A DNA stretch of 64,000 nucleotides from Mariprofundus ferrooxydans PV-1 (GTDB lineage Bacteria; Pseudomonadota; Zetaproteobacteria; Mariprofundales; Mariprofundaceae). The notes beneath the pieces were generated by a model. The model was given only the letters and a program-made list of their open reading frames with translations. It ran no database searches and was not told the DNA's origin. The stretch's first letter is position 1. Each line of letters opens with the position of its first letter. The position numbers and the translations under genes are program-made. The DNA lies in the NCBI RefSeq assembly GCF_000153765.1, contig NZ_DS022295.1, positions 752,887-816,886 on the forward strand, given 5' to 3'. Shown here piece by piece: positions 29,996-43,331 of this stretch.

Positions 29996-29997
29996 GT

Positions 29998-30043
29998 TGG
30001 TGGCGCTTCAGGGACTCGAACCCCGGGCACGCGGATTATGATC
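29998..30043 (-). tRNA. 3' half of tRNA-Met-like gene (CAT), ICE attachment site
   Basis: On the minus strand the sequence runs from an anticodon loop with CAT (30040-30038) through an intact T arm (GGGGTTCGAGTCCC-like) to an encoded CCA end. The 5' half is missing: bases upstream do not pair beyond three anticodon-stem positions and no D arm is present. This is the expected result of a tyrosine integrase inserting an element within a tRNA gene, with the chromosome on the left and the element on the right. The intact copy should lie beyond the right end of the window. tRNA-Ile2 (also CAT) is an alternative. Confidence 0.85.
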
Positions 30044-30182
30044 CCTTCTTCGGGCTCAACAATATCAATGCACGCTCATCTATCATATTAATAATAAAGG
30101 AATTTTGTTCCCGTTGATTCCCGCTCGATCCCTGTTATTCTGCAGCTTCACACACCGCACACACACCGCAGGAGAGCGTGGG

Positions 30183-31178
30183 ATGGCGATCCAGAAAAGA
30201 AAATGGAAGAACGGGCGAACAACTTACCGTGTCCAAGTGTATCATCGCGGAAAGGTAGTAGCTGACGCGACTTTTGATTTTCGTCGGGATGCGCAACTGT
30301 TCGAAGCCGAGGTGAAAACGAAGCTGCAAAGGGGCGACTTCGTGGATACTCGTCTGGCTGAACGAACGCTGTTCGGTGAAGCGTTGGAACGATATGCAGA
30401 GAATATCGTTCCGAGGAAAAAGGGAGCAAGACAAGAGATGTCTCGAGTGCGCACGCTGTCCCGCTCGTCACTGGTTCGCCTCCCTTTGTCGAAAATCAGA
30501 ACGCCAGATATCATCAAATATCGTGATAGCCGACTGAAAGAAGTTGGTCCGAACTCTGTTCGTTTGGAACTGGCAGTTATTTCCCACTTATTCACCGTTG
30601 CATCCAGAGACTGGGGCATGAACTACCTGAGCAACCCCGTCGCCCGTGGTGTGATGCCATCGGTCAAGCAGACTGCAAGGGATCGGCGCCTACAACCCGG
30701 TGAAGAAGATCAGCTGATGCAAGCTTGCAAAGAATACGGCGGTGTGATCGGCGACATTGTGATGTTCGCTTTAGAAACAGCCATGAGGCGCGCAGAAATT
30801 GCCAGTCTCCGATGGGAGGACATCCATGGCAACATCGCAAGACTACATGACACGAAGAATGGCGAACGCCGGGATGTTCCATTGTCTAGTCGCGCGCGTG
30901 AAATCATTCATCGCCGGGCAAAGGTACGATCATTGAATGATAAGCGGGTATTCGGCATTGCGCCAAACGGGATCTCGCAGGCGTTCTCACGCGTTTGCAA
31001 GCATGCTGGGATTGTAGATCTGCGTTTTCATGATTTGAGGCACGAAGCGACCAGCCGCTTATTCGAACGAGGGTTAAACCCAATGCAAGTTGCCTCAATT
31101 ACTGGACATAAAACACTCCAGATGCTCAAACGCTACACCCACCTCCGTGCTGAGGATCTAGTGGCCCTGCTGGACTAG
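30183..31178 (+). CDS. int: Tyrosine recombinase, ICE integrase
   Basis: 331 residues from ATG 30183 (AGGAG upstream); longer in-frame starts lack a ribosome-binding site. An N-terminal SAM-like core-binding domain (about 55-150) is followed by the catalytic domain: first Arg in ALETAMRRAEIASLRW (about residue 202), HxxR in FHDLRHE, and the nucleophilic Tyr in LKRYTHL (about 317). It lies about 140 bases from the tRNA 3' half, so it is the likely enzyme that integrates the element there. Confidence 0.93.
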   Translation: MAIQKRKWKNGRTTYRVQVYHRGKVVADATFDFRRDAQLFEAEVKTKLQRGDFVDTRLAERTLFGEALERYAENIVPRKKGARQEMSRVRTLSRSSLVRLPLSKIRTPDIIKYRDSRLKEVGPNSVRLELAVISHLFTVASRDWGMNYLSNPVARGVMPSVKQTARDRRLQPGEEDQLMQACKEYGGVIGDIVMFALETAMRRAEIASLRWEDIHGNIARLHDTKNGERRDVPLSSRAREIIHRRAKVRSLNDKRVFGIAPNGISQAFSRVCKHAGIVDLRFHDLRHEATSRLFERGLNPMQVASITGHKTLQMLKRYTHLRAEDLVALLD

Positions 31179-31787: not shown

Positions 31788-32078
31788 CGTATCCTCCTTG
31801 AAATGCGGCAAGCAAAACGAACCGGAACCGCCGTAGCGGAGTCCGATTTGTACGCATGCCTGTTTTGAATGGTGGTTGTTTTAATATGCTGGTGCGCGTT
31901 CGCGCATTTGAAAGAATGCCCCGTGCCTCCGTGGAGACAATGCATCACCATGGCCGTGGCCACAGTTCGGGGCGGATGCAATCAACAAGCGTTTTATAGA
32001 CTTTCTTTCTGCCCTACGCAGGAAACCGGTTCCTTTCCCGCGTAGCGTTTATTGGTTGTGCCGTCTATCATTTGGAAC

Positions 32079-32309
32079 ATGAAACAGTCATACATCAAGG
32101 AAATGGCTATCGCCTTGCTGGCCGCAATCGCCGTCGGCTGGGTAACCCATAGCCTTCTTGGCGTGATTGCCTTTTTCGTCATCGGTGCTTTCCTGTCGAA
32201 AGGATCGGTGCCCGAAAATGAAATGCGGAAGATAGCCAAGTCGGAGGAAGACGAGCTGGGGTGTGGTCACTCTCTGGACTTGGGACTTGAATACACTCGC
32301 CCGGACTGA
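32079..32309 (+). CDS. Small membrane protein of unknown function
   Basis: 76 residues from ATG 32079 (no strong ribosome-binding site). One long or two short membrane segments at about 8-45 (AIALLAAIAVGWVTHSLLGVIAFFVIG) followed by a charged tail. Its last codons lie in the left copy of the 49-bp repeat, so before the cargo inserted it probably converged with traG. Family unknown. Confidence 0.5.
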   Translation: MKQSYIKEMAIALLAAIAVGWVTHSLLGVIAFFVIGAFLSKGSVPENEMRKIAKSEEDELGCGHSLDLGLEYTRPD

Positions 32310-32347
32310 TTAGCCCTTTTCATCCTTTTTCTCTGGCGGCTCGACAT
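32299..32347 (+). repeat. 49-bp direct repeat, left copy (traG 3' end)
   Basis: Identical over 49 bases to 40396-40444. On the minus strand it encodes the last 12 or so codons of traG (VEPPEKKDEKG and stop). The pair brackets the Ehr-like operon and its regulator, so a piece of traG is left here detached from the gene. Confidence 0.95.
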
Positions 32348-32379
32348 TGGATGCTGATGGACATTGTTGGGCCGTTACC

Positions 32380-32889
32380 TTATCGCATTTCAGCGGCGGC
32401 CAGGATGCCCCGGATGATGTCCGTCGGTGTCGGTGGGCAGCCGTGAATGACAACATCTACGGGAATGATATCCGATACCGCGCCGGCGATCGCGTAGTTG
32501 TCCCTTCCGAATACGCCGCAGTTGACCGCGCAGTCGCCCATGGCCACCACCAGCTTCGGATCGGACGTGGCATTATAGGTCATCTCAAGCGCCTTCCTCA
32601 TATTCACCGAAACCGGGCCGGTCACCAGCAGCATATCGGCGAAACGCGGAGAGGCGGTGAAATGAATACCGAAGCGCTCGATATCGTAATAAGCATTGTT
32701 CGTGGCATGGATTTCCAGCTCGCAGCCGTTACAGGAGCCGGCATCCACGGCCCGGATAGTCAGCGAGCCCGCAAAATGATTGCGAATGACCGACTCAAGT
32801 CGTTTACCCATCACTTTGAACTGATCGCTTGCCGCCAGCGGTTCGGTGATGGTACCGATTCTGGTGATCTGCCTGAGGATTCCCAGCAT
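32380..32889 (-). CDS. HyfI/NuoB-like small subunit of Ehr-like complex
   Basis: 169 residues of the NADH dehydrogenase 20 kDa/hydrogenase small-subunit family. Four cysteines that ligate the proximal 4Fe-4S (N2-type) cluster are present: Cys53 and Cys56 in GSCNGCELE, Cys120 in GDCAVNCG and Cys151 in HGCPPTP. It would receive electrons close to the large subunit. Last gene of the operon, ten bases after hyfG. The stop lies close to the left 49-bp repeat. Confidence 0.9.
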   Translation of the reverse strand: MLGILRQITRIGTITEPLAASDQFKVMGKRLESVIRNHFAGSLTIRAVDAGSCNGCELEIHATNNAYYDIERFGIHFTASPRFADMLLVTGPVSVNMRKALEMTYNATSDPKLVVAMGDCAVNCGVFGRDNYAIAGAVSDIIPVDVVIHGCPPTPTDIIRGILAAAEMR

Positions 32890-32899
32890 ACTTGTCTCC

Positions 32900-34498
32900 C
32901 TACAGATCGTTGCCCGAATACGAACAGTTGAAGGATTTGTTGTTCAGCGGAAAGTCGGGCACCGGCACCTCCCGCACGGCCAGCTCCAGTCCCAGCCAGT
33001 TGATCACCGAGGGATCGCGTACGAAACAGCGGTCGATCTGCCCGCCTTCGCCGAAGCGCACCCATGCGGCGATCTCGCCACGCCAACCCTCGATGGCGGC
33101 AAAGCCGGACACGCCGGGCTCCGGCGGTAGCCAGTTCGCAACGATCGGACCTTCGGGCATCTTCTCCAGCAACTCCGAAATCAGGCGCGAGGACTCGGCA
33201 ATCTCCTCGAAGCGCACCCAGACCCGCGTGGCGACGTCGCCGAGCTTGCCTTGTGGTACATTGACTTCGAGTTCGTCATAGGGGGCATAGGCTTCCTCGA
33301 TGCGTTCATCCGGGTAGTGGCCAGACGCCCGGCCGACATAGCCGAGCAATCCGATGTCCTGTGCATCCTCGACCGGCACCATGCCCGAGCCAATCACACG
33401 CCCCTGAATCGAGGGGTGGTCGGCATAGATGGCACGCAGATGTTCGACCTCGTTGGCAATGGCAAGTGTCTGCTCCCGAAGCAGGCCGATTGCCCGCTCA
33501 CCGAGGTCGACGAGAACGCCGCCCGGGATCAGCGTGTTCATCAGCAGGCGATGACCGAATAGCTCCAGATGCAGGCGCGCCATGTCCTCGCGCAGACGGT
33601 GCATCTGATGGAGCATGAAGGCGAACGCGGCATCGTTGCAGACGGCGCCGATATCGCCGATATGGTTGGCGATACGTTCCCGCTCGCAAAGGATGGCGCG
33701 GATGAAGCTGGCGCGGCGAGGCACATCGATCTGGCCGGCGTATTCGCAGGCCTGGGCGAAGGCCCATGCATGCGCCACCGTGCTGTCGCCGGAGATGCGC
33801 GAAGCAACCTTGAGCCCTTCTTCCGCCGACTTGCTTTGCATGGCGCGCTCGATGCCCTTGTGCACGTAGCCTAGCCGCTCCTCCATGTTCAGGATATGTT
33901 CGCCGACGGCCAGAAAACGGAAATGTCCAGGCTCAATGATGCCGGCATGCACCGGCCCGACCGGAATTTCGTAAACGCCCTCGCTGCCCGAGCGCACATA
34001 GTCGTAATCGCCATGCGCCTCCGCCAGCAGGGGGGGGCGCGCGTCGAAATCCACGCGCAACGGATACGCCTCGCGCGGCCAGTGCTCATGCTTGATCCAC
34101 GGGCGCGGATCGGGGATATCGGTGATGTGGATCCCGAACATGTCCTGCATGTGTCGCTCCATGCGGCAGGCGGCGATGTAGTGCCCGCTGATGCTCGGCA
34201 GCTCGGGATTCTCCGCCGCCAGCGGCGTGCGCAGCAGCGTGTGCCGGTGTTCGGGGTGCGCGAACGCCATGTAGGCATACATAGCATGGGCGTCCCGATC
34301 GTGGCATCCCGCTTCGGCGCCCCAGAGTGCGACCAGCCGCATGCCGAGCCGGCGCGCCTCGCAGGCTGCGTGCGCCCAGTCCAGTCGGCGGATCTCCAGG
34401 CACGGCATGTGCTCCGGGCGGTGGTCGTTCAGCCAGATCGAGTGAATGTCGCAGTCGCCGAGGTGTTCGACAAACCAGGTATTGATCGGTTGCGTCAT
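32900..34498 (-). CDS. HyfG/NuoCD-like large subunit lacking NiFe ligands
   Basis: 532 residues: N-terminal NuoC-like part (about 1-160) fused to a NuoD/hydrogenase large-subunit domain. True group 4 hydrogenases have CxxC near both ends of the large subunit. Here the first site reads RISGDSTVAHAWAF (234-247) and the last SFNCSYSGNDL (522-532), so the four ligands are missing. It therefore probably cannot bind a NiFe centre, which places the complex with the energy-converting hydrogenase-related (Ehr) enzymes between hydrogenases and complex I. Substrate unknown. Start overlaps hyfF stop (ATGA). Confidence 0.88.
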   Translation of the reverse strand: MTQPINTWFVEHLGDCDIHSIWLNDHRPEHMPCLEIRRLDWAHAACEARRLGMRLVALWGAEAGCHDRDAHAMYAYMAFAHPEHRHTLLRTPLAAENPELPSISGHYIAACRMERHMQDMFGIHITDIPDPRPWIKHEHWPREAYPLRVDFDARPPLLAEAHGDYDYVRSGSEGVYEIPVGPVHAGIIEPGHFRFLAVGEHILNMEERLGYVHKGIERAMQSKSAEEGLKVASRISGDSTVAHAWAFAQACEYAGQIDVPRRASFIRAILCERERIANHIGDIGAVCNDAAFAFMLHQMHRLREDMARLHLELFGHRLLMNTLIPGGVLVDLGERAIGLLREQTLAIANEVEHLRAIYADHPSIQGRVIGSGMVPVEDAQDIGLLGYVGRASGHYPDERIEEAYAPYDELEVNVPQGKLGDVATRVWVRFEEIAESSRLISELLEKMPEGPIVANWLPPEPGVSGFAAIEGWRGEIAAWVRFGEGGQIDRCFVRDPSVINWLGLELAVREVPVPDFPLNNKSFNCSYSGNDL

Positions 34499-35970
34499 AC
34501 GCCGCCTCCTGCGGAAACCGCCGCGATCAGGGTCGCCGCCTGCTCATACCAGCCGGCCAGAAAGCCCGGGATCGACAGACCAAGCACCAATGCCAATGCC
34601 AGATGGATATAAACCGGCAGCATGTTGACCTGCACCGAAACCGCCTGCTCTGCGGTTTCACCATAGACCATCGGTTGCACGAAGCGCAGCAGACCAGCCA
34701 TCGCGATCAGCAGACCCAGCAGTAGTGGAATCGTTGTCCATGGGTTTGATTCGAGCGCGGCGGTGAACAGCAGGAACTCGCTGGTGAACACGCCGAACGG
34801 CGGGAAACCGGCAATGGCCACTGTGCCAATCATAAGCCCCCAGCCGATGCCGGGATGATGGCGAATCAACCCGCGTATTTCAGACATCTTCTGCGTGCGC
34901 ATGGCTTGCGCAGCATGGCCGACTGTGAAAAAGATGCCGGACTTGACCAGTGAATGGACGGTCATGTGCAGCAATGCGGCAACACCGGCCAGCTGGGTGC
35001 CGAGGCCGAAGGCGAAGGTCATCAGCCCCATGTGCTCGATCGAGGAGAAAGAGAACATGCGCTTGATGTCCCGCTGCCTGTGCAGGGAGAACGCGGCCAC
35101 GAACAGTGACAGTATGCCGAATGCCATCATCATATGTCCGGCCAGACCGGTTCCGGTTGCGCCATCTACCAGCATTTTCAGCCGCACCAGCGCATATAGT
35201 GCAAGATTAAGCAAGAGTCCGGAAAGCACGGCTGAGACCGGTGTCGGCCCCTCGCCGTGGGCATCCGGCAGCCAGGCATGCATCGGCGCAAGCCCCACCT
35301 TAGTGCCGTAGCCGACCATCAAAAAGCAGAAGGCAATCGTCATGACGAAGGGATCGAGCGCGCCGGCATGCTCATGCAACAGCGTCCAGGTCAGCGCTTC
35401 ATTACCGTGTCCGAGCACACTGGAGGAAGTGAAAAATACCAGTACTGTCCCGAACAGCGCCAGTGCGATGCCCATGCCGCAGAGAATAAAGTACTTCCAC
35501 GCAGCGGCGATTGAGGCTGGTGTTCGATATAGAGAAACCAGCAGTACCGTCGCTAATGTGGCCAGCTCCAGCGAAACCCATAGCACGCCGATATTGTTCG
35601 TGGTAAAGCCGAGCAACATGCCGAACTGGAAGAGTTGGAACATGCTGTGGTATAGCCTCATTTGGCGAGCATTGACACGGCCGGCGTCGAATTCGTGTCG
35701 CATATAGGGGGCGGAAAAGATGGCTGTGGTCATGCCGACGAATGCGGTCAGTGCAACCAGAAAAGCATTGTAGGCATCCAGATGGAACCAGCCATCCAGA
35801 GTGTTGAAACCACGCGCATTGAGCACCTGCATGGCAAGCCCCAGGCTGAACGTGAATGTGACCATGCCGATGGCGATATTGGCGCGAGCGGCCCATCGAG
35901 GGTGGCGGATCCCGGCGAGTAGAAGGCCGCCGAGTAGCGGGGTGAACAGCACGATGAGAAACAGATTCAT
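34495..35970 (-). CDS. HyfF/NuoN-type antiporter-like membrane subunit
   Basis: 491 residues, about 13-14 hydrophobic segments, in the complex I/Mrp antiporter-like subunit family. The LAPMHAWLPDAHGEGPTPVSAVLSGLLLNLALYALVR region carries the conserved Lys and His of the proton pathway. One of two such subunits in the cluster (with hyfB), so the complex likely pumps ions. Overlaps hyfE and hyfG by four bases each. Confidence 0.9.
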   Translation of the reverse strand: MNLFLIVLFTPLLGGLLLAGIRHPRWAARANIAIGMVTFTFSLGLAMQVLNARGFNTLDGWFHLDAYNAFLVALTAFVGMTTAIFSAPYMRHEFDAGRVNARQMRLYHSMFQLFQFGMLLGFTTNNIGVLWVSLELATLATVLLVSLYRTPASIAAAWKYFILCGMGIALALFGTVLVFFTSSSVLGHGNEALTWTLLHEHAGALDPFVMTIAFCFLMVGYGTKVGLAPMHAWLPDAHGEGPTPVSAVLSGLLLNLALYALVRLKMLVDGATGTGLAGHMMMAFGILSLFVAAFSLHRQRDIKRMFSFSSIEHMGLMTFAFGLGTQLAGVAALLHMTVHSLVKSGIFFTVGHAAQAMRTQKMSEIRGLIRHHPGIGWGLMIGTVAIAGFPPFGVFTSEFLLFTAALESNPWTTIPLLLGLLIAMAGLLRFVQPMVYGETAEQAVSVQVNMLPVYIHLALALVLGLSIPGFLAGWYEQAATLIAAVSAGGGV

Positions 35971-36644
35971 TCGTTCTCATCCTCCTGGATCAGGTGCGAC
36001 TGCATGATATCCACTTCCAGAGAGTCGAAAGTTTCTCTGATCTGAAAAAAGAATAGGCCGAAGATCAACGCGGCAATGAGTACATCGAAGGCGATACCAA
36101 TCTCCACCACCAGTGGCATGCCGTTGGTCGAACCGATGGCGGCGAAGAACAGTGCGTTCTCGACGGCCAGGAAACCGATCACCTGGGTGATGGCCTTTCT
36201 GCGCGTGATCATCATCAGCATGCCCAGTAGTACGCAGGCGGTGGCGATGGCCATCGAGTCGCGTGTCAAAAGCTCCGAAATTTTTTCGATGGGTTGAATA
36301 ATGTGAAACGAGAAGAGCGTGACGGCCAGCGCAATGAGCATGGTCAGCGGCATATTCATCAGTGGTTCGACCTCACGGTGGACATGCAGTTCCTTGATGA
36401 CGCGCCACAATAGCCATGGCAGCAGCAGTCCCTTGAGCAGAAAGGTCATCACCGCTGAGATATAAAGTTCATGATTGTCGGTGCCATAGGCGACCACAAC
36501 GGCAGTCACCGCCAGCAGCACGCCCTGCGCCGCGAACCAGTTGAGCACCGAGAGCATGCGGTGTTGCGCCAGCAGCGCAAAGGAGACTAACAGCATCAAG
36601 GCAGCCAAACTGTCGACCAGTTGTTGGAGAAATGCGCCGCTCAT
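35967..36644 (-). CDS. HyfE/NuoK-like membrane subunit
   Basis: 225 residues from ATG 36644, which overlaps the hyfC stop; the longer open frame upstream is a shadow of hyfC. Multiple membrane segments in the HyfE/HycP pattern (LKGLLLPWLLWRVIKELH, then AVENALFFAAIGSTNGMPLVVEIGIAFDVLIAA). HyfE is a NuoK-like small subunit of the membrane arm. Confidence 0.85.
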   Translation of the reverse strand: MSGAFLQQLVDSLAALMLLVSFALLAQHRMLSVLNWFAAQGVLLAVTAVVVAYGTDNHELYISAVMTFLLKGLLLPWLLWRVIKELHVHREVEPLMNMPLTMLIALAVTLFSFHIIQPIEKISELLTRDSMAIATACVLLGMLMMITRRKAITQVIGFLAVENALFFAAIGSTNGMPLVVEIGIAFDVLIAALIFGLFFFQIRETFDSLEVDIMQSHLIQEDENE

Positions 36645-37588
36645 GCGCCGACCTCCAGCATGTAGTGTGTGAGCAGCCCCAGAAAAGCGATGACAAACGC
36701 GCCTGAGAGGTATTCCGGCGCCTCGAATAGACGCATTTTTGCCAGCCCCGTTTCTGCCAGTGCCAGCATAAGCAACAAACCGAAGAGCTTGGCAACCCAC
36801 AGCGCCAACGCCAATGTCAGCGCTAAGATGCCGGCATCGGTTGCCATGCCCCAAGGCAGGAACAGATCGATGAGCAGTGTGGCGAACAGCAGTAGTTTAA
36901 TCATCGCGGCCCACTCCATCAGCGCTAGGTGACGCCCGGAATATTCCAGGATCATGGCTTCGTGGATCATCGTCAGTTCCAGATGCGTGGTCGGATTGTC
37001 GATCGGGATGCGTCCGTTCTCGGCGATGGCGATCATCACCATCGCCGCCAGCGCGAATGCCAGCGACGGTTGCAAGACCAACGGCGCATTTAGCGCGTGA
37101 TTGATCATTGTCGTCAGGTTGGTGCTGTGCGCGGAAAGTGAGAGTACGAATACGCTCATCAGCATGGCCGGCTCGGCTAGCGCTGAAAACGTCATTTCGC
37201 GGCTGGCACCCATGCCGCCGAATGCCGTACCGATGTCCATGCCGGCCAATGCAAGGAAGAAACGGGCCAGCGCCAGAAGTGCCACCAGCGCAATAACATC
37301 GGCAGTGAGCGACAAGGGGGTGTTGACCAGCACGGCTGGCACGCAGCTGGCCGCCATGACCGTGGCCGTGAAGACCACATAGGGAGCGAAGCGGAAAATC
37401 CACGAGGCATGTTCCGCCATGACCACTTCTTTGGCGATCAGCTTGCGCAGGTTCCGCCATGGCTGCATTACGCCCCCGCCGCGGCGGTTCTGCAGCCTGG
37501 CCTTGCATGTGGCCACGAAGCCTGCGGCAAGTGGTGCCAGTACGATCAGCAGTACTGCCTGCAGGAATTGGATGAGAAATGCGTTCAT
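36641..37588 (-). CDS. HyfC/NuoH-like membrane subunit
   Basis: 315 residues with about eight membrane segments of the NuoH/HycD family. RGGGVMQPWRNLRKLIAKE near 35-53, then ENGRIPIDNPTTHLELTMIHEAMILEYSGRHLALMEWA is the family's conserved acidic loop that links the quinone or substrate site to the membrane arm. Overlaps hyfB and hyfE. Confidence 0.9.
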   Translation of the reverse strand: MNAFLIQFLQAVLLIVLAPLAAGFVATCKARLQNRRGGGVMQPWRNLRKLIAKEVVMAEHASWIFRFAPYVVFTATVMAASCVPAVLVNTPLSLTADVIALVALLALARFFLALAGMDIGTAFGGMGASREMTFSALAEPAMLMSVFVLSLSAHSTNLTTMINHALNAPLVLQPSLAFALAAMVMIAIAENGRIPIDNPTTHLELTMIHEAMILEYSGRHLALMEWAAMIKLLLFATLLIDLFLPWGMATDAGILALTLALALWVAKLFGLLLMLALAETGLAKMRLFEAPEYLSGAFVIAFLGLLTHYMLEVGA

Positions 37589-39591
37589 GCGAACGCCACC
37601 AGCAGGAAGAGGATCGTGGCAAAGGTCCAGGCGAGATAGGCATGGATTCCGCGCTGATGTTCATGCCGAACCCGTTTGGCAAGGCCCAGCGTTAGCCGAG
37701 CCAGCGGCTGATAGAGATGTCTGACGGCCGGATCGCCAACGTGCACGGTATAACGAACCCTGCGCGTGAGAAGCTTGTGCGCCGGGCGCTCGACATGGAT
37801 ATGCTCCTCGGGCCGCAACACGCCGGCGAAGATGCGGCGCAACGGTTGCGAAAAAGCGGTCGCGTTGTACTGCATGCGGGCATGGATATGCGGATTGCCG
37901 CAGCTCCACAATGCGCCACGCCGAATGCGGCAACCCTTCGGGTGCAACCACCAGTAAACCAGACCACCGACGCCCAGCATGCCGGCCAGCGCCACAGGCG
38001 CCGAATAGGAAGCATGCGTCGCATCGACCGGAGTCAGCCAGAGCCAACCGTGCTCGTACAGATGCGCGCCCAGCGAGACATGGAGCAGGGAAGCCGGAAT
38101 GGCATCCATGAGCGGAATGAACATCACCGGCAGTAGGCCGAGCAGCAGACAAAGCAGCGCGGGAATCGCCATGCCGAGTTTCATCCAGCCATCCACTTCG
38201 TGCGCTCCGGCCACATGTTCACTGCGTGCATGCCCCAAAAAGACCACGCCGAATACCTTGACGAAACAGGCTGCGGCCAAGGCTCCCGCCAAGGCCAGCA
38301 TGGCGGCGGAAAACGGAACGATGGCGGTAAGCAGCGCACCACCCAGTTGCGGCGCCATCAGCGCGGTCTGGAAGGTCAGCCATTCCGACACGAAACCATT
38401 GAACGGTGGCAAGGCCGAGATCGAGACACAGGCAACGAGGAAGAACAACGCGGTGGCGGGCATGCGATGGATCAATCCTCCCATGGTTTCCATGTCGCGC
38501 GTGCCGGTGACATGCAGCACGGCGCCCGCCCCCATGAACAGGAGACCCTTGAACAGGGCATGATTGATCGTGTGATAAAGCCCGGCGATCAGTCCGAGCG
38601 CCGCGAGCAACGGGTGACCGAAATGCGCGAGCAGCATGCCCAGCCCCAGTCCGATCAGAATGATGCCGATGTTCTCGATCGAGTGGTAGGCCAAAAGCCG
38701 CTTCAGATCGTGTTGTTGCAGCGCGAAAAGCACGCCGGATACCGCAGAGGCGGAACCGGCGGTGAGCACCAGCGCACCCCACCACCACTGGAAATCGCCC
38801 GGGCCGATCAGATCCCAGACCACGCGGAGAAAACCGAAGACGGCCACTTTGAGCATGATGCCGCTCATCAGCGCGGAAACATTGCTGGGCGCGACCGGAT
38901 GGGCATCGGGCAGCCAGCCGTGCATCGGCACCACACCGGCCTTCGTGCCAAAACCAAAGGCCACAAGCAGAAACGCGGCCGTGGCCCAGAACGGGAAGAG
39001 GTGTGCTGCACGCATGACGGAAAACTCGAATGAACCGCTGGCCGCGTAGAGCACTGCGAAGCCGCCGAGAATCAGCAGCCCGGCCAGATGCGCCATCAGC
39101 AAATAGATGAAGCCTGCCTTGCGGTTCTCAAGACGCTCATGCTCAAACGTGACGAGGAAATAGGACGACACGCTCATCATCTCCCAGAACAGCATGAAGG
39201 TGAAGGCATCATCGGCGATTACCACACCCAGCATGCCGAGCACGAACAGCGGCAGGAACACGGCCAGCGCGCCCAGCCGTTTCTCTCCTTTAAGATAGCC
39301 TTGTGAATAAATGGCCACTGGCAGCAACAGAGTGCCAATGACCAGCAGAAAGAAGGCACTTAGCCCATCTACGCGGAAATGCATTGGCAGCCAGGGCAGG
39401 CCGAGGGGAAGAATCAACGAGGTTGGTTCAGTCAGTAGCCCTTGAATGCCGCCAATCATGGCTGATAAGCCGCTGATGGCCAGCAAAAGACAAAGTATGC
39501 TACGCCGTGCATCTCCTCCCAATGCGGGAGCTATAGCTGAGGCCAACAGAGGTGTTCCACAGGCGGTGATGGCAAGTGCCATCGCTGTCAT
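37585..39591 (-). CDS. HyfB/NuoL-type antiporter-like membrane subunit
   Basis: 668 residues, about 14-16 membrane segments. LPMHFRVDGLSAFFLL, then KAGVVPMHGWLPDAHPVAPSNVSALMSGIMLKVAVFG shows the antiporter-family channel signature with conserved Lys, and the extended C-terminus is typical of HyfB. First structural gene, overlapping the XRE/cupin regulator by four bases (ATGA), so regulator and complex are made together. Confidence 0.92.
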   Translation of the reverse strand: MTAMALAITACGTPLLASAIAPALGGDARRSILCLLLAISGLSAMIGGIQGLLTEPTSLILPLGLPWLPMHFRVDGLSAFFLLVIGTLLLPVAIYSQGYLKGEKRLGALAVFLPLFVLGMLGVVIADDAFTFMLFWEMMSVSSYFLVTFEHERLENRKAGFIYLLMAHLAGLLILGGFAVLYAASGSFEFSVMRAAHLFPFWATAAFLLVAFGFGTKAGVVPMHGWLPDAHPVAPSNVSALMSGIMLKVAVFGFLRVVWDLIGPGDFQWWWGALVLTAGSASAVSGVLFALQQHDLKRLLAYHSIENIGIILIGLGLGMLLAHFGHPLLAALGLIAGLYHTINHALFKGLLFMGAGAVLHVTGTRDMETMGGLIHRMPATALFFLVACVSISALPPFNGFVSEWLTFQTALMAPQLGGALLTAIVPFSAAMLALAGALAAACFVKVFGVVFLGHARSEHVAGAHEVDGWMKLGMAIPALLCLLLGLLPVMFIPLMDAIPASLLHVSLGAHLYEHGWLWLTPVDATHASYSAPVALAGMLGVGGLVYWWLHPKGCRIRRGALWSCGNPHIHARMQYNATAFSQPLRRIFAGVLRPEEHIHVERPAHKLLTRRVRYTVHVGDPAVRHLYQPLARLTLGLAKRVRHEHQRGIHAYLAWTFATILFLLVAFA

Positions 39592-40130
39592 CGGGAACGC
39601 ACCATAAGGATTTCACAGCGCGTATCGGAGATATTCCGCCAGTTGTGCGGCTTACGCGCATCGTAATAGACTGATTGCATTTCACACAACTCATAGCTGC
39701 GTTCATCATATTCCAGCACCGCCCTGCCCTTGCGCATCCATACGAAGGCATGTGGACTCTTGATGCCGTATTTGTTTTCATCGAAACAGCCGCCGGGATC
39801 CAGTTGCACCAGCATCGGCTCGAACCCGGCCGGTTGATGCATGGCCGTCAGCGGCACAAAGCGTCCGCCTTGGCCGAGCGGTACCGATGGTCGCTCATTC
39901 AGATCGAAAATTTCAATGTCGGCAGGATTGCCTGAATCCAGAAAGAAGGCGGCGATGGCAATGCCCAACCCATCGGCCAGCTTTTCCAGCGTGGCCACCG
40001 ACGGCGAGGTTTGCCCGGCCTCCAGTTGCGACAGGGCCGCCGCGCTGATACCGGCGGCCTCCGCCAGCGCGCGCTGGGAAAGGCCCTGTTGCTCTCTGAG
40101 CGATCTGATTGTACCCCCGATGTTTTGCAT
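39588..40130 (-). CDS. XRE-family regulator with C-terminal cupin domain
   Basis: 180 residues: an HTH_3 domain (about 6-60, SLREQQGLSQRALAEAAGISAAALSQLEAGQTSPS) and a cupin domain (about 105-178, LDPGGCFDENKYGIKSPHAFVWMRKGRAVLEYDE). Cupins of such regulators bind small ligands. As first gene of the Ehr-like operon it is the natural candidate to control it. A strong predicted promoter (40139-40166) ends almost at the start codon, so the mRNA may be leaderless, and no ribosome-binding site is seen. Confidence 0.9.
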   Translation of the reverse strand: MQNIGGTIRSLREQQGLSQRALAEAAGISAAALSQLEAGQTSPSVATLEKLADGLGIAIAAFFLDSGNPADIEIFDLNERPSVPLGQGGRFVPLTAMHQPAGFEPMLVQLDPGGCFDENKYGIKSPHAFVWMRKGRAVLEYDERSYELCEMQSVYYDARKPHNWRNISDTRCEILMVRSR

Positions 40131-40138
40131 GCGGCGGT

Positions 40139-40166
40139 ATTATTCACTATTCTAATCTACTGTCAA
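40139..40166 (-). promoter_or_regulatory. Sigma-70-like promoter of the Ehr-like operon
   Basis: On the minus strand TTGACA (40166-40161), 16 bases, then AATAAT (40144-40139), which differs from TATAAT at one position. Transcription from here would start within a few bases of the ATG at 40130, implying a leaderless or nearly leaderless transcript. Confidence 0.6.
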
Positions 40167-40335
40167 TTATTTCGATCACCCCTTCTCCCAGATCAGCGAT
40201 CGGACACATTACCGGGCAATGTGTTCGCTGCCGCCGGTGCAGGTTGCGGAGGACAATGATTTCGATCGCAAATGGCGGACAATGCACGATATATTCCATA
40301 TCCTGTTATCGAGGCATATCATCCGAGGAGAACCC

Positions 40336-40410
40336 ATGAGCGGATTTCCCCATTGCCCGGAATGCAATTCCGAATACATCTATGAAAATCGCGGTGCCCG
40401 GACTGATTAG
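40336..40410 (+). pseudogene. Truncated PhnA/YjdM-like gene, 5' fragment
   Basis: ATG 40336 follows a GAGGAG-like ribosome-binding site and encodes MSGFPHCPECNSEYIYENRG, the zinc-ribbon start of PhnA/YjdM proteins (normally about 110 residues). The likeness ends where the 49-bp repeat begins at 40396; the frame then stops after 24 residues. It marks the right edge of the inserted cargo and shows the cargo was cut out of a context where phnA lay divergent from the Ehr regulator. Confidence 0.75.
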
Positions 40411-40444
40411 CCCTTTTCATCCTTTTTCTCTGGCGGCTCGACAT
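40396..40444 (+). repeat. 49-bp direct repeat, right copy (within traG 3' end)
   Basis: Right copy of the repeat at 32299-32347, identical over 49 bases. It contains the true 3' end of traG and about 11 bases past the stop. Confidence 0.95.
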
Positions 40445-43331
40445 GCACGCCCGGCTCCTCGCCGCCAAGCCGACCCGGACTTCCCTTGAGCACGCCTACA
40501 TCGCGGGTCACATCCGGCGTTTCAAACAATGGCGTGCCCGGTACATGATGGTCTTTCAGCGTCACGCCATTGCCATCTGACATCCCGGCGATGAATCCTC
40601 CGGCCGCCTCAGGCAACTGATCCTTGATGTTTTGCCAGGTGTTGGCAGCAACACGTCCCCCTAAGTGGGTAGATTGCCCGTCCACATCGTCTTTGAGGCT
40701 CTGCAACTTTCCGGATACCTCAGACTGACCGTGTTCAACGGCCGTCTGATTGGCTTGGCTCCTACGTTCAGCGTCACTTATCTTCTGATCCACGTGCGGC
40801 AAGGCTGGTTGCTTCGAGGGATCCAAATCAGCCTCCCGCTGCTTGTGATCGACGGTGCCCGTCGGATCTGAAACACGGTGTCCGGGCTCGAGAGTCCCGG
40901 TCGCCTCCTGCATCTCCGCTTCCCAGCCGGCCACCCTGCCATCGCCATCAATGTCGATGTCCATACCGCTTCGGTGCATGACATATTCGGAGAACTCCTC
41001 GCTTGCGGCCAATTGCTCGATCTTGCCGCGGTTTGCCGTGTCATGCACATCGATACCCTTCGATGCGGCAAACTGCTCCAGATAATCGTTGGCTGTCGCT
41101 TGGATATCGCGTGAATGTGCTTTCCCGAATTCCTCGGCCTGGCGCAATTCTTCTGTTCGTCGATGGGCGGCGCTGTATTGCTCCTGCTCCTGAGAAAGAC
41201 GCGTGTGCGTATCCACAAGGCTCTTTCCAGCGTCCGTGCTGTGCATGGACGATGTATCGCGGCTTGCCGCCTCGGCCAAGCGGTTTTCCACCTGTTGGGC
41301 GTGCGTGAATGTCTGCGCTATCTTGCCGGTCGTGGCATCCTTGTAGGCTTCTTGAAGCTTGGAATCTGAAACGCCCTCAATTCTTGCCTGTGCGCTTACC
41401 TTCCCGCCCGTTCCAAACAACTCGAAGCCACCACTCATGGATGCGCTGGCGTTGGCCAGAATCCGGGCAGCCTGTTCATCGGTCAGGCCATGCTCCCTGG
41501 CAAAGTTGTGGGCAATTTCACGGCTACTCTGGAAGCTCTTCGTATCGCCGACAATACTGCTCACCTCTTTGCGTAGCGCGCTGCTCTCACTGTACCGGGC
41601 GGTCTCCACAAGTTGCTCCGCAGCCGCGCTCTGCGCGGTTTGTGCTACCATAACGTTCTTCGCATGCGTTCGCTCCACCGCCTCGGCATGATTTCGGGCA
41701 TTGGAAACATTGTGCATCAGCGCCTGCCTGCTCGATACTCCCACGCCGAGGTCGCTGTTGATCAGCTGGCTGGCCACACGCCCGCCAGGGCTGAAGTGGT
41801 CCGTAAAGGCGCCGTTGGAGTATTGCGCGCCCAGATTCATGTTCGGCGCCATCTGCTGCTGCATGACGGACTGGTTGCCGGCTTGCAGATTGCCGGTGCT
41901 GATATTGCCGCGTGCCATTTCGCCACCCATCTGGTTAGCCGCCTGGGTGGCTGGCATGAACAGCTGCTGCGCCAGTTGCGAGAAGGCGAATCCGCCTGCC
42001 GTCACAAGTCCCCAGGCCAAAAGCGGAATAGACAGTGCGAGGTATCCCGCGATGATCACCATGTCCGAATTCACCTGAGTCATGCCTTGCAAGCCCGCCA
42101 TGCTCGCGGGCGACAGAACGCCGTCTGCGATGCTTCGCGTGGCGGACTTGTCGTAGAGCGACACCACCATGTTCAGTATGGCGTACAGCACGGGCCATAG
42201 CTGAATCCAGATCATCATCTTGAGGTATGTGGCCAGCGCCTTGCCGGACACGGTGACCGGCAGTAGCAACGCCAGGAACACAACAAAGAATGTGCCATAG
42301 ATAATGACCTGGAAAACCGTCTGCATGATCGGCAGCGCCCGGGCGGCAATCTCGCCCATGGTTCGGTAGGCGCTCCGTTGCTGGCGTTCCGTGACGGTCA
42401 CGGCCCAAGCCGTCGCGGCGGCCGTGGCGTTTGCCATCGAAGCCACCTGGCCGTAGGAATCACGGAAGAAGTTTGCCAGCGCGGACTGTGTCACCATCTG
42501 ACTGGCCGTCGTAGAGATATTCGCCAGATAACCGTAAGTGGCGGGCAGCGCGGAAAGCAGACGCGCGCGCATTACGGCTGGCGCCTGGCCAGTGTTCCCG
42601 AACAAAGCGTTTGCGAACCTTCCGATCATGCTGTCCACCACGGGCGTGATGTCCGTTTTCAGACGCGTTGCCGCCTGCTTGCAGGTCAGAAATGTCGAGG
42701 CTCCGTTGCCAGGATCGTAGAACATTCCGCGAATGCCCGAATTGAGGGCCGGCGACAGGATCAGGGACAGAAGATTCGATGAATAGTAGATATCCTTCAT
42801 GGAATAGAAGCCATAGGCGACGTTGTAGTAAACGCACTGCCGGGCGTACTCGGTCAGGTTCTTGTTCAGCAATGGATCGTCAAACATGGCGTTGTTGATA
42901 GCCAACACCAGTTTGGAGCCGAAGACCATGCCGGTGTTGTGATACAGCATGTCGTTCGGCGGCGTGAATACCGCCTCGGTCATCGTCGTCAACCCGTCTC
43001 CGATGGTGGAGAACAGCCAGGCCGGCGCGGCCAGACCGAACGGAACATTGGCCACCACTCGGGTTGCAGCCGGATTCAACCGGTCCATGATGACCACGTT
43101 CATCTTCGGCACGAAGAAGATGTTGAACATCAGCATGAACATGACGAACCAGTGCCAGTTGATGGTGCGCCGCAACACGCCCATCTCGATCACCACCCAG
43201 AACAGAGACAATATGCCGAACAGACGAATCAACGTCAGATAGTCTCCTCCGCCCATCAAGGACGCGATTGCATTGAAGACCTCGTAGAGCGCCTCGCCGC
43301 CGCCGTAGGTGTATACCGTGTAGGAAGTCAT
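40407..43331 (-). CDS. traG: TraG, F-type conjugative transfer protein (mating-pair stabilisation)
   Basis: 974 residues, the usual size. An N-terminal TraG_N domain with several membrane segments (about 30-60, 330-370, 420-460) and a long hydrophilic, Gln/Ala-rich C-terminal region. In F, TraG acts in pilus assembly and, through its C-terminal part, in mating-pair stabilisation and entry exclusion. Last gene of the transfer operon; its 3' end is duplicated 8 kb away by the cargo insertion. Confidence 0.9.
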   Translation of the reverse strand: MTSYTVYTYGGGEALYEVFNAIASLMGGGDYLTLIRLFGILSLFWVVIEMGVLRRTINWHWFVMFMLMFNIFFVPKMNVVIMDRLNPAATRVVANVPFGLAAPAWLFSTIGDGLTTMTEAVFTPPNDMLYHNTGMVFGSKLVLAINNAMFDDPLLNKNLTEYARQCVYYNVAYGFYSMKDIYYSSNLLSLILSPALNSGIRGMFYDPGNGASTFLTCKQAATRLKTDITPVVDSMIGRFANALFGNTGQAPAVMRARLLSALPATYGYLANISTTASQMVTQSALANFFRDSYGQVASMANATAAATAWAVTVTERQQRSAYRTMGEIAARALPIMQTVFQVIIYGTFFVVFLALLLPVTVSGKALATYLKMMIWIQLWPVLYAILNMVVSLYDKSATRSIADGVLSPASMAGLQGMTQVNSDMVIIAGYLALSIPLLAWGLVTAGGFAFSQLAQQLFMPATQAANQMGGEMARGNISTGNLQAGNQSVMQQQMAPNMNLGAQYSNGAFTDHFSPGGRVASQLINSDLGVGVSSRQALMHNVSNARNHAEAVERTHAKNVMVAQTAQSAAAEQLVETARYSESSALRKEVSSIVGDTKSFQSSREIAHNFAREHGLTDEQAARILANASASMSGGFELFGTGGKVSAQARIEGVSDSKLQEAYKDATTGKIAQTFTHAQQVENRLAEAASRDTSSMHSTDAGKSLVDTHTRLSQEQEQYSAAHRRTEELRQAEEFGKAHSRDIQATANDYLEQFAASKGIDVHDTANRGKIEQLAASEEFSEYVMHRSGMDIDIDGDGRVAGWEAEMQEATGTLEPGHRVSDPTGTVDHKQREADLDPSKQPALPHVDQKISDAERRSQANQTAVEHGQSEVSGKLQSLKDDVDGQSTHLGGRVAANTWQNIKDQLPEAAGGFIAGMSDGNGVTLKDHHVPGTPLFETPDVTRDVGVLKGSPGRLGGEEPGVHVEPPEKKDEKG

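Follow-up and report, generated by a model that had tools for sequence, protein, structure and literature searches.

An 8-kb block of DNA carried by a putative integrative and conjugative element (ICE) with F-type transfer genes in Mariprofundus ferrooxydans PV-1 may be a circularly permuted segment of chromosomal DNA, encoding an energy-converting hydrogenase-related (Ehr) complex, that was captured by the ICE in a head-to-tail or F-prime-like manner, and with modest confidence this is the reading we favour from comparison with the sequences of relatives. The block lies in a window of 64,000 nucleotides (the whole stretch analysed, G000:C3:752887-816886 in our genome and contig numbering, where G000 is the host), and all positions are those of the window unless a contig is named. 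It is bounded by two copies of a 49-bp sequence, of which one forms the end of the ICE transfer gene traG:

32052 to 32309, plus strand: small membrane gene, with an inner ATG at 32082, convergent with traG
32299 to 32347, no strand: left repeat copy, the last 11 nt of the small gene and a detached duplicate of the final 38 nt of traG
32348 to 40395, no strand: insert between the repeats, 8,048 bp
40396 to 40444, no strand: right repeat copy, still joined to traG, whose last 38 nt and stop it contains
40407 to 43331, minus strand: traG of the ICE (PF07916)

The two copies are direct repeats, 100% identical over 49 bp with a start-to-start spacing of 8,097, and an 80-nt query bearing the repeat returned only these two matches at E<=0.001 in the 2.99-Mb host genome, the 49-bp match having an E value of 2.4e-19, so the pair is not due to chance. 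An earlier sequence-only reading of this DNA had described identical repeats at these positions, a right copy in place and a left copy orphaned beside hyfI, and a phnA/yjdM gene cut after about 20 codons exactly where the repeat starts, and each of these descriptions holds: the left copy contains a 38-nt traG end severed from its gene and adjoining hyfI (stop at 32380), and the phnA frame runs from 40336 to 40395 with the repeat beginning at 40396. The stop of the small gene (32307-32309) occupies repeat positions 9-11 and that of traG positions 12-14; in the presumed empty site these convergent genes therefore abut with zero gap (TGA then TTA), and because their stops touch, an insertion without duplication would normally damage one of them. 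With the 49-bp duplication both are whole. The same reading had taken the perfect identity of the repeats to mean a recent event, which is weakly supported, since zero differences in 49 sites bound repeat divergence only below about 6% (95% confidence).

Within the insert, an XRE-cupin regulator precedes hyfB/C/E/F/G/I-like genes on the same (minus) strand, with two stretches of upstream DNA and a phnA/yjdM stub at the right-hand end:

32380 to 32889, minus strand: hyfI-like small subunit (PF01058)
32900 to 34498, minus strand: hyfG-like large subunit of Ehr type, with no CxxC motif
34495 to 35970, minus strand: hyfF-like antiporter-type subunit (PF00361)
35967 to 36644, minus strand: hyfE-like membrane subunit (NF008556, below its cut-off)
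36641 to 37588, minus strand: hyfC-like subunit (PF00146)
37585 to 39591, minus strand: hyfB-like subunit (NF005086, hydrogenase 4 subunit B, above its cut-off)
39588 to 40130, minus strand: XRE-cupin regulator, linked to Ehr in relatives
40131 to 40173, no strand: XRE upstream stretch, similar to the corresponding DNA of G077, with joint J1 at or after its end
40174 to 40335, no strand: stretch upstream of phnA, which matches the spacer between purD and phnA in G077
40336 to 40395, plus strand: phnA/yjdM stub, the first 20 codons, cut at joint J2

By its gene families this cargo is identified as a complete, hydrogenase-4-like Ehr cluster. Ehr complexes are related to group 4 hydrogenases and have none of the residues that hold nickel and iron, as set out in the part of the source cited here (PMC6349859), and the HyfG protein, having no CxxC motif, fits that description. 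The same families suggest that the cluster probably encodes a redox complex that translocates ions and has a promoter of its own, controlled by XRE. A search of the host genome gave one Ehr DNA match and one XRE match. Two adjacent hyfB-type genes were seen in the Ehr clusters of G083, G084, G005 and G010 (loci L040, L043, L044 and L045).

The 20 codons of the phnA stub are followed by four repeat-encoded codons and a TAG, and the stub matches positions 2-17 of the 30-position PhnA zinc ribbon profile (PF08274, E 3.3e-6) with a score of 27.4 bits, which is under the gathering score of 30.8; against intact phnA 5' ends it is 75% identical over 20 aa. At E<=1e-20, phnA of this type has no match in the host. 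We rejected the resident yjdM (C3:697501), the sole yjdM-family match in the host genome, as the source of the stub, as it is of a distant type (42% identical to G079 phnA over 91 aa) and has no nucleotide match to the insert.

We examined where phnA lies in relatives using Ehr loci with at least 1 kb of flank (four XRE-side and seven hyfI-side loci with shorter flanks were excluded, and two genomes, G029 and G273, were from outside the family). At the hyfI end, phnA is linked to Ehr in 3 of 29 flanks (G074, G076 and G077), all in the clade of the cargo and all with phnA and Ehr on opposite strands, as in the insert, while none of 27 XRE-side flanks carries it. Likewise, no XRE match was found beside any of the 13 phnA loci of the family within flanks of about 1.5 kb, two of these loci being cut by contig ends. 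The donor predicted by the sequence-only reading, with full-length phnA divergent from XRE, was thus not found, and its assumption of a donor piece in native order runs against all three linked relatives, in which phnA is at the opposite end.

The DNA upstream of the two genes points the same way. Insert DNA up to about 40171 resembles the XRE upstream region of G077 (3/1000 shuffles), the equivalent comparisons with G076 and G074 not being significant (139/1000 and 68/1000), and an alignment of positions 40174-40331 covers almost all of the spacer between purD and phnA in G077 (score 68, shuffle maximum 42, 0/300), the phnA-proximal half of the match being strong (0/1000). No match to the insert was found for the phnA-upstream DNA of G020, G074, G076 or G005 (287, 106, 187 and 95 of 300 shuffles, respectively). 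The insert looks circularly permuted relative to its donor because phnA is at the hyfI end in the linked relatives and here is on the XRE side, with upstream DNA like the purD-phnA spacer. The comparison with relatives predicts three novel joints: J1, probably near 40172-40238, which unites two ends that are some 8-9 kb apart in relatives such as G076; J2, from phnA codon 20 to the repeat; and J3, from the repeat to hyfI. The 3' part of phnA is absent from the insert, as probably is most of the phnA-hyfI spacer, and this stretch is where the donor would have been opened. Of the earlier proposal of a single insertion with duplication of the traG end, the inserted Ehr cluster and the duplicated stretch are supported and the native-order donor piece is not; at least three joints are needed.

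That proposal, a simple linear capture, nevertheless has to be weighed. Here the donor would have had phnA divergent from XRE, and a fragment from hyfI to phnA codon 20 would have been joined into a staggered break in the ICE with 49-nt overhangs filled in. We regard this as possible, though doubtful: two joints would suffice, the true donor is unsampled, phnA often switches neighbours and the G079 match given below comes without purD in the fetched flanks, and the flank counts above tell against it. Several observations weigh against circular permutation. The purD-proximal half of the spacer match is weak (13/1000 shuffles against the corresponding part of the spacer and 55/1000 against the whole), the phnA upstream DNA of G079 also matches the insert (63, 0/300) yet has no purD match within the fetched flanks, the spacer between purD and phnA in G020 shows no similarity to the insert, and the XRE-upstream DNA of G074 weakly matches 40188-40261 (16/300). 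In addition, phnA directly adjoins hyfI only in G077, where the Ehr locus is divided between two contigs, with about 1 kb between the genes in G074 and G076, and in G075, the nearest sampled relative of the cargo, phnA lies elsewhere and none is linked to Ehr. Finally, phnA/yjdM is distributed as if it were a mobile single-gene unit, occurring in 13 of 74 family genomes mostly with different neighbours (loci L151-L163), and because it shifts about in this way it could have moved independently to a place beside XRE in a donor that is not among the sampled genomes.

The donor order suggested under circular permutation is XRE-Ehr-hyfI-phnA-purD. A number of relatives have Ehr on the chromosome in a slot bounded by purH and purD: the two genes enclose it in G002, G005, G010 and G016, as they do in G077, where they are on different contigs, and one of them was seen beside Ehr in G003, G018, G022, G083 and G084. 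The G020 slot contains XRE and SulP with phnA, and that of the host (L081, G000:C4:860001-876000) contains SulP alone. The purH-purD interval in the family acts as a swappable slot, holding XRE and Ehr, XRE with SulP and phnA, or SulP alone (L081, L048, L082, L044, L045 and L138). Excision of the cargo from the host's own purH-purD locus was considered and rejected, as that slot is without Ehr, XRE and phnA and the cargo branches with other genera.

At E<=0.001, 36 of the 74 family genomes, the host included, have DNA that matches the insert; the best of the long matches reach about 77% identity, so the true donor is not among the genomes sampled. In a tree of HyfI, HyfG, HyfC, HyfE and XRE (34 rows, several partial, all of them retained), the cargo is sister to G075 (ultrafast bootstrap, UFBoot, 98) inside a clade with G074, G076 and G077, which belong to genus g24, and G041, of genus g19 (98), and members of the host's own genus fall elsewhere, in four places. 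An earlier tree, in which HyfF and HyfB were mispaired for G077 and perhaps for other fragmentary genomes, likewise put the cargo beside G075. The nearest neighbours of single genes vary (HyfI, G003, which is partial; HyfG, G076; HyfC, G041; HyfE, G083/G084; XRE, G077). The donor was probably a lineage near genus g24 in the same family, and the placement suggests that an operon for a redox complex has passed from one genus of that family to another.

The element that received the cargo is delimited by attachment sites and has an integrase gene:

29997 to 30042, no strand: attL of the ICE, a copy of the tRNA-Met 3' end, with attR at G000:C3:852215-852260
30105 to 31178, plus strand: ICE integrase (PF00589)

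The att sites share 46 bp between window positions 29997-30042 and the tRNA-Met gene at the far side, at 97.8% identity, which predicts an ICE of about 69 kb. It has family matches to the F-type mating proteins TraU, TraN, TraF, TraH, TraG and TraC, and from these and its att sites it is assigned as an integrative and conjugative element with F-type transfer genes, integrated at tRNA-Met. A traG DNA search of 40 other genomes gave nothing except one 61-base match of 75% identity (E 9.5e-4). At the protein level, and at E<=1e-60, traG matched 1 of 78 class genomes, which is the host itself, and 5 of 398 phylum genomes including the host, the other four being 26-31% identical, and a scan of a genome-contig collection gave no match. 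A TraU scan yielded 18 loci with best segments 38-53% identical. The small gene had no match at E<=0.01 in these 18 loci or in the phylum-level traG loci and none in a plasmid collection, a 26-nt piece of the repeat was not found in viral contigs, and neither an empty-site relative nor a close relative of the ICE was found in the genomes, plasmids and viral contigs searched. A second island in the ICE lies outside the window, at about G000:C3 821911-835783 (69025-82897 in window numbering), and from its translations, judged by eye, seems to encode a UvrD-like helicase, an OLD-like ATPase and a type III restriction-modification system, interrupted in the middle by an open reading frame (ORF) for an IS256-like transposase. 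A second ORF resembling a tyrosine recombinase was seen by eye at about G000:C3 841599-842531 (88713-89645).

Neither mark of a transposon with target-site duplication was found in the insert: its 60-nt ends score 11 as inverted repeats against a shuffle mean of 12 (362/500), indicating no terminal inverted repeats, and a Pfam search detected no transposase, integrase or other recombinase family among its genes. The situation is more mixed for site-specific integration, by which a tyrosine recombinase, either that of the ICE or one since lost, would have put a circle into a 49-bp core at the traG 3' end. Long perfect repeats that restore the end of a gene are typical of tyrosine-recombinase islands, and such repeats are present here, in an ICE that has an integrase and the second recombinase-like ORF. 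However, no integrase of its own was found in the insert, its repeat does not exceed shuffled sequences in similarity to attL or attR (213/500 and 169/500, respectively), the 49 bp has no further copy in the genome, and an evolved element is not expected to have a gene cut mid-frame at its border, so that we consider this explanation improbable. Less likely still is an assembly artefact, in which a join at a 49-bp overlap would have placed a separate molecule into the ICE. Repeats of about one k-mer in length can come from assembler joins, but the contigs are 1.42 and 1.47 Mb long, the window is far from the ends of its contig, and both molecules would still have to share the 49-bp sequence.

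Returning to capture of a permuted segment, the donor DNA would have been joined head to tail, XRE upstream to phnA upstream, forming J1, and would have been opened or broken somewhere from codon 20 of phnA to hyfI, the remainder of phnA being lost; its entry would then have duplicated 49 bp of ICE sequence, giving J2 and J3. Three histories could lead there: (i) a circle of the donor segment was captured by the ICE, (ii) the donor segment was tandemly duplicated and part of it copied into the ICE, or (iii) the ICE entered the donor at a point between codon 20 of phnA and hyfI and, on leaving later, took along DNA from each side. We infer that all three would yield the same sequence and need non-homologous joining, with the 49-bp ICE overlap as the one duplication seen. 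J2 and J3 would most likely have formed either through non-homologous joining or through a template switch in which copying returned to the ICE 49 bp behind its exit; a staggered break, or a switch back 49 bp upstream, could each yield the overlap. Selection for an intact traG and its neighbour would favour survivors with such an overlap, and with both convergent genes kept whole conjugation could therefore survive. A short duplication may in this way let an insertion land between abutting genes with neither harmed.

No microhomology was found at the joints themselves, and this too counts against the permuted-capture reading. As candidates we considered the first 7 nt and the last 5 nt of the repeat, which recur near J2 and J3 (in 0.66% and 7% of 20,000 random draws, respectively, and both together in 0.035%); neither is at a joint, the observation is post hoc and we give it no weight. 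The 7-nt match is in the phnA stub, at 40355-40361, and GACATTG occurs twice, 17 nt apart, across J3 at 32343-32366; both lie off the joints and are possible traces of microhomology or templated filler.

A more specific form of the third history is that the ICE once sat inside phnA at a donor purH-purD locus, outside its usual tRNA target, and left as an F-prime-like 'ICE-prime', taking Ehr from one side and the phnA promoter from the other, which we hold to be rather unlikely. If it were true, the 49-bp repeats would be scars of that irregular integration, and ICEs could gain whole chromosomal operons, with no transposon involved, by integrating and excising aberrantly. Type II F-primes are conjugative elements that carry DNA from both sides of their integration point in permuted order. 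The order of the insert fits such an origin; an integrated precursor was not seen here and, unlike the F-prime plasmids, the element is an ICE with a tRNA site and not F. Uptake of whole chromosomal operons by ICEs without insertion sequences can rarely be read from sequence, and as a likely donor locus can be named here, together with a donor clade and three joints, a specific route, capture in a head-to-tail or F-prime-like manner, is opened to testing. In the open-licence literature we found no paper on permuted ICE cargo with border duplication, nor on an ICE in Mariprofundus, F-prime aberrant excision, or microhomology and ICE cargo.

SXT also carries F-type transfer genes. In the parts of the source cited here (PMC2791158), SXT/R391 ICEs have variable DNA in intergenic hotspots with conserved borders and intact core genes, and the hotspot borders are nearly always identical between ICEs with different contents. 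Our element resembles these in its F-type transfer genes and, so far as they are described there, in variable DNA at a boundary of backbone genes that are left whole, whereas it differs in being a single known ICE with a 49-bp duplication and a permuted cargo order. ICEs of P. syringae carry their cargo in mostly intergenic cargo regions, and one such cargo, Tn6212, is a tyrosine-recombinase transposon with imperfect repeats at its ends, according to the sections used of PMC10945833; here too a cargo with a metabolic effect is at a mostly intergenic type of backbone site, but unlike Tn6212 no recombinase was found within the insert. The cluster itself, like the Ehr complexes in the cited part of PMC6349859, is group-4-hydrogenase-like without nickel-iron ligands, and differs from those described there in being borne by an ICE. 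Capture of cargo by ICEs is well known, and it is the permuted order together with the clean border duplication that is unusual.

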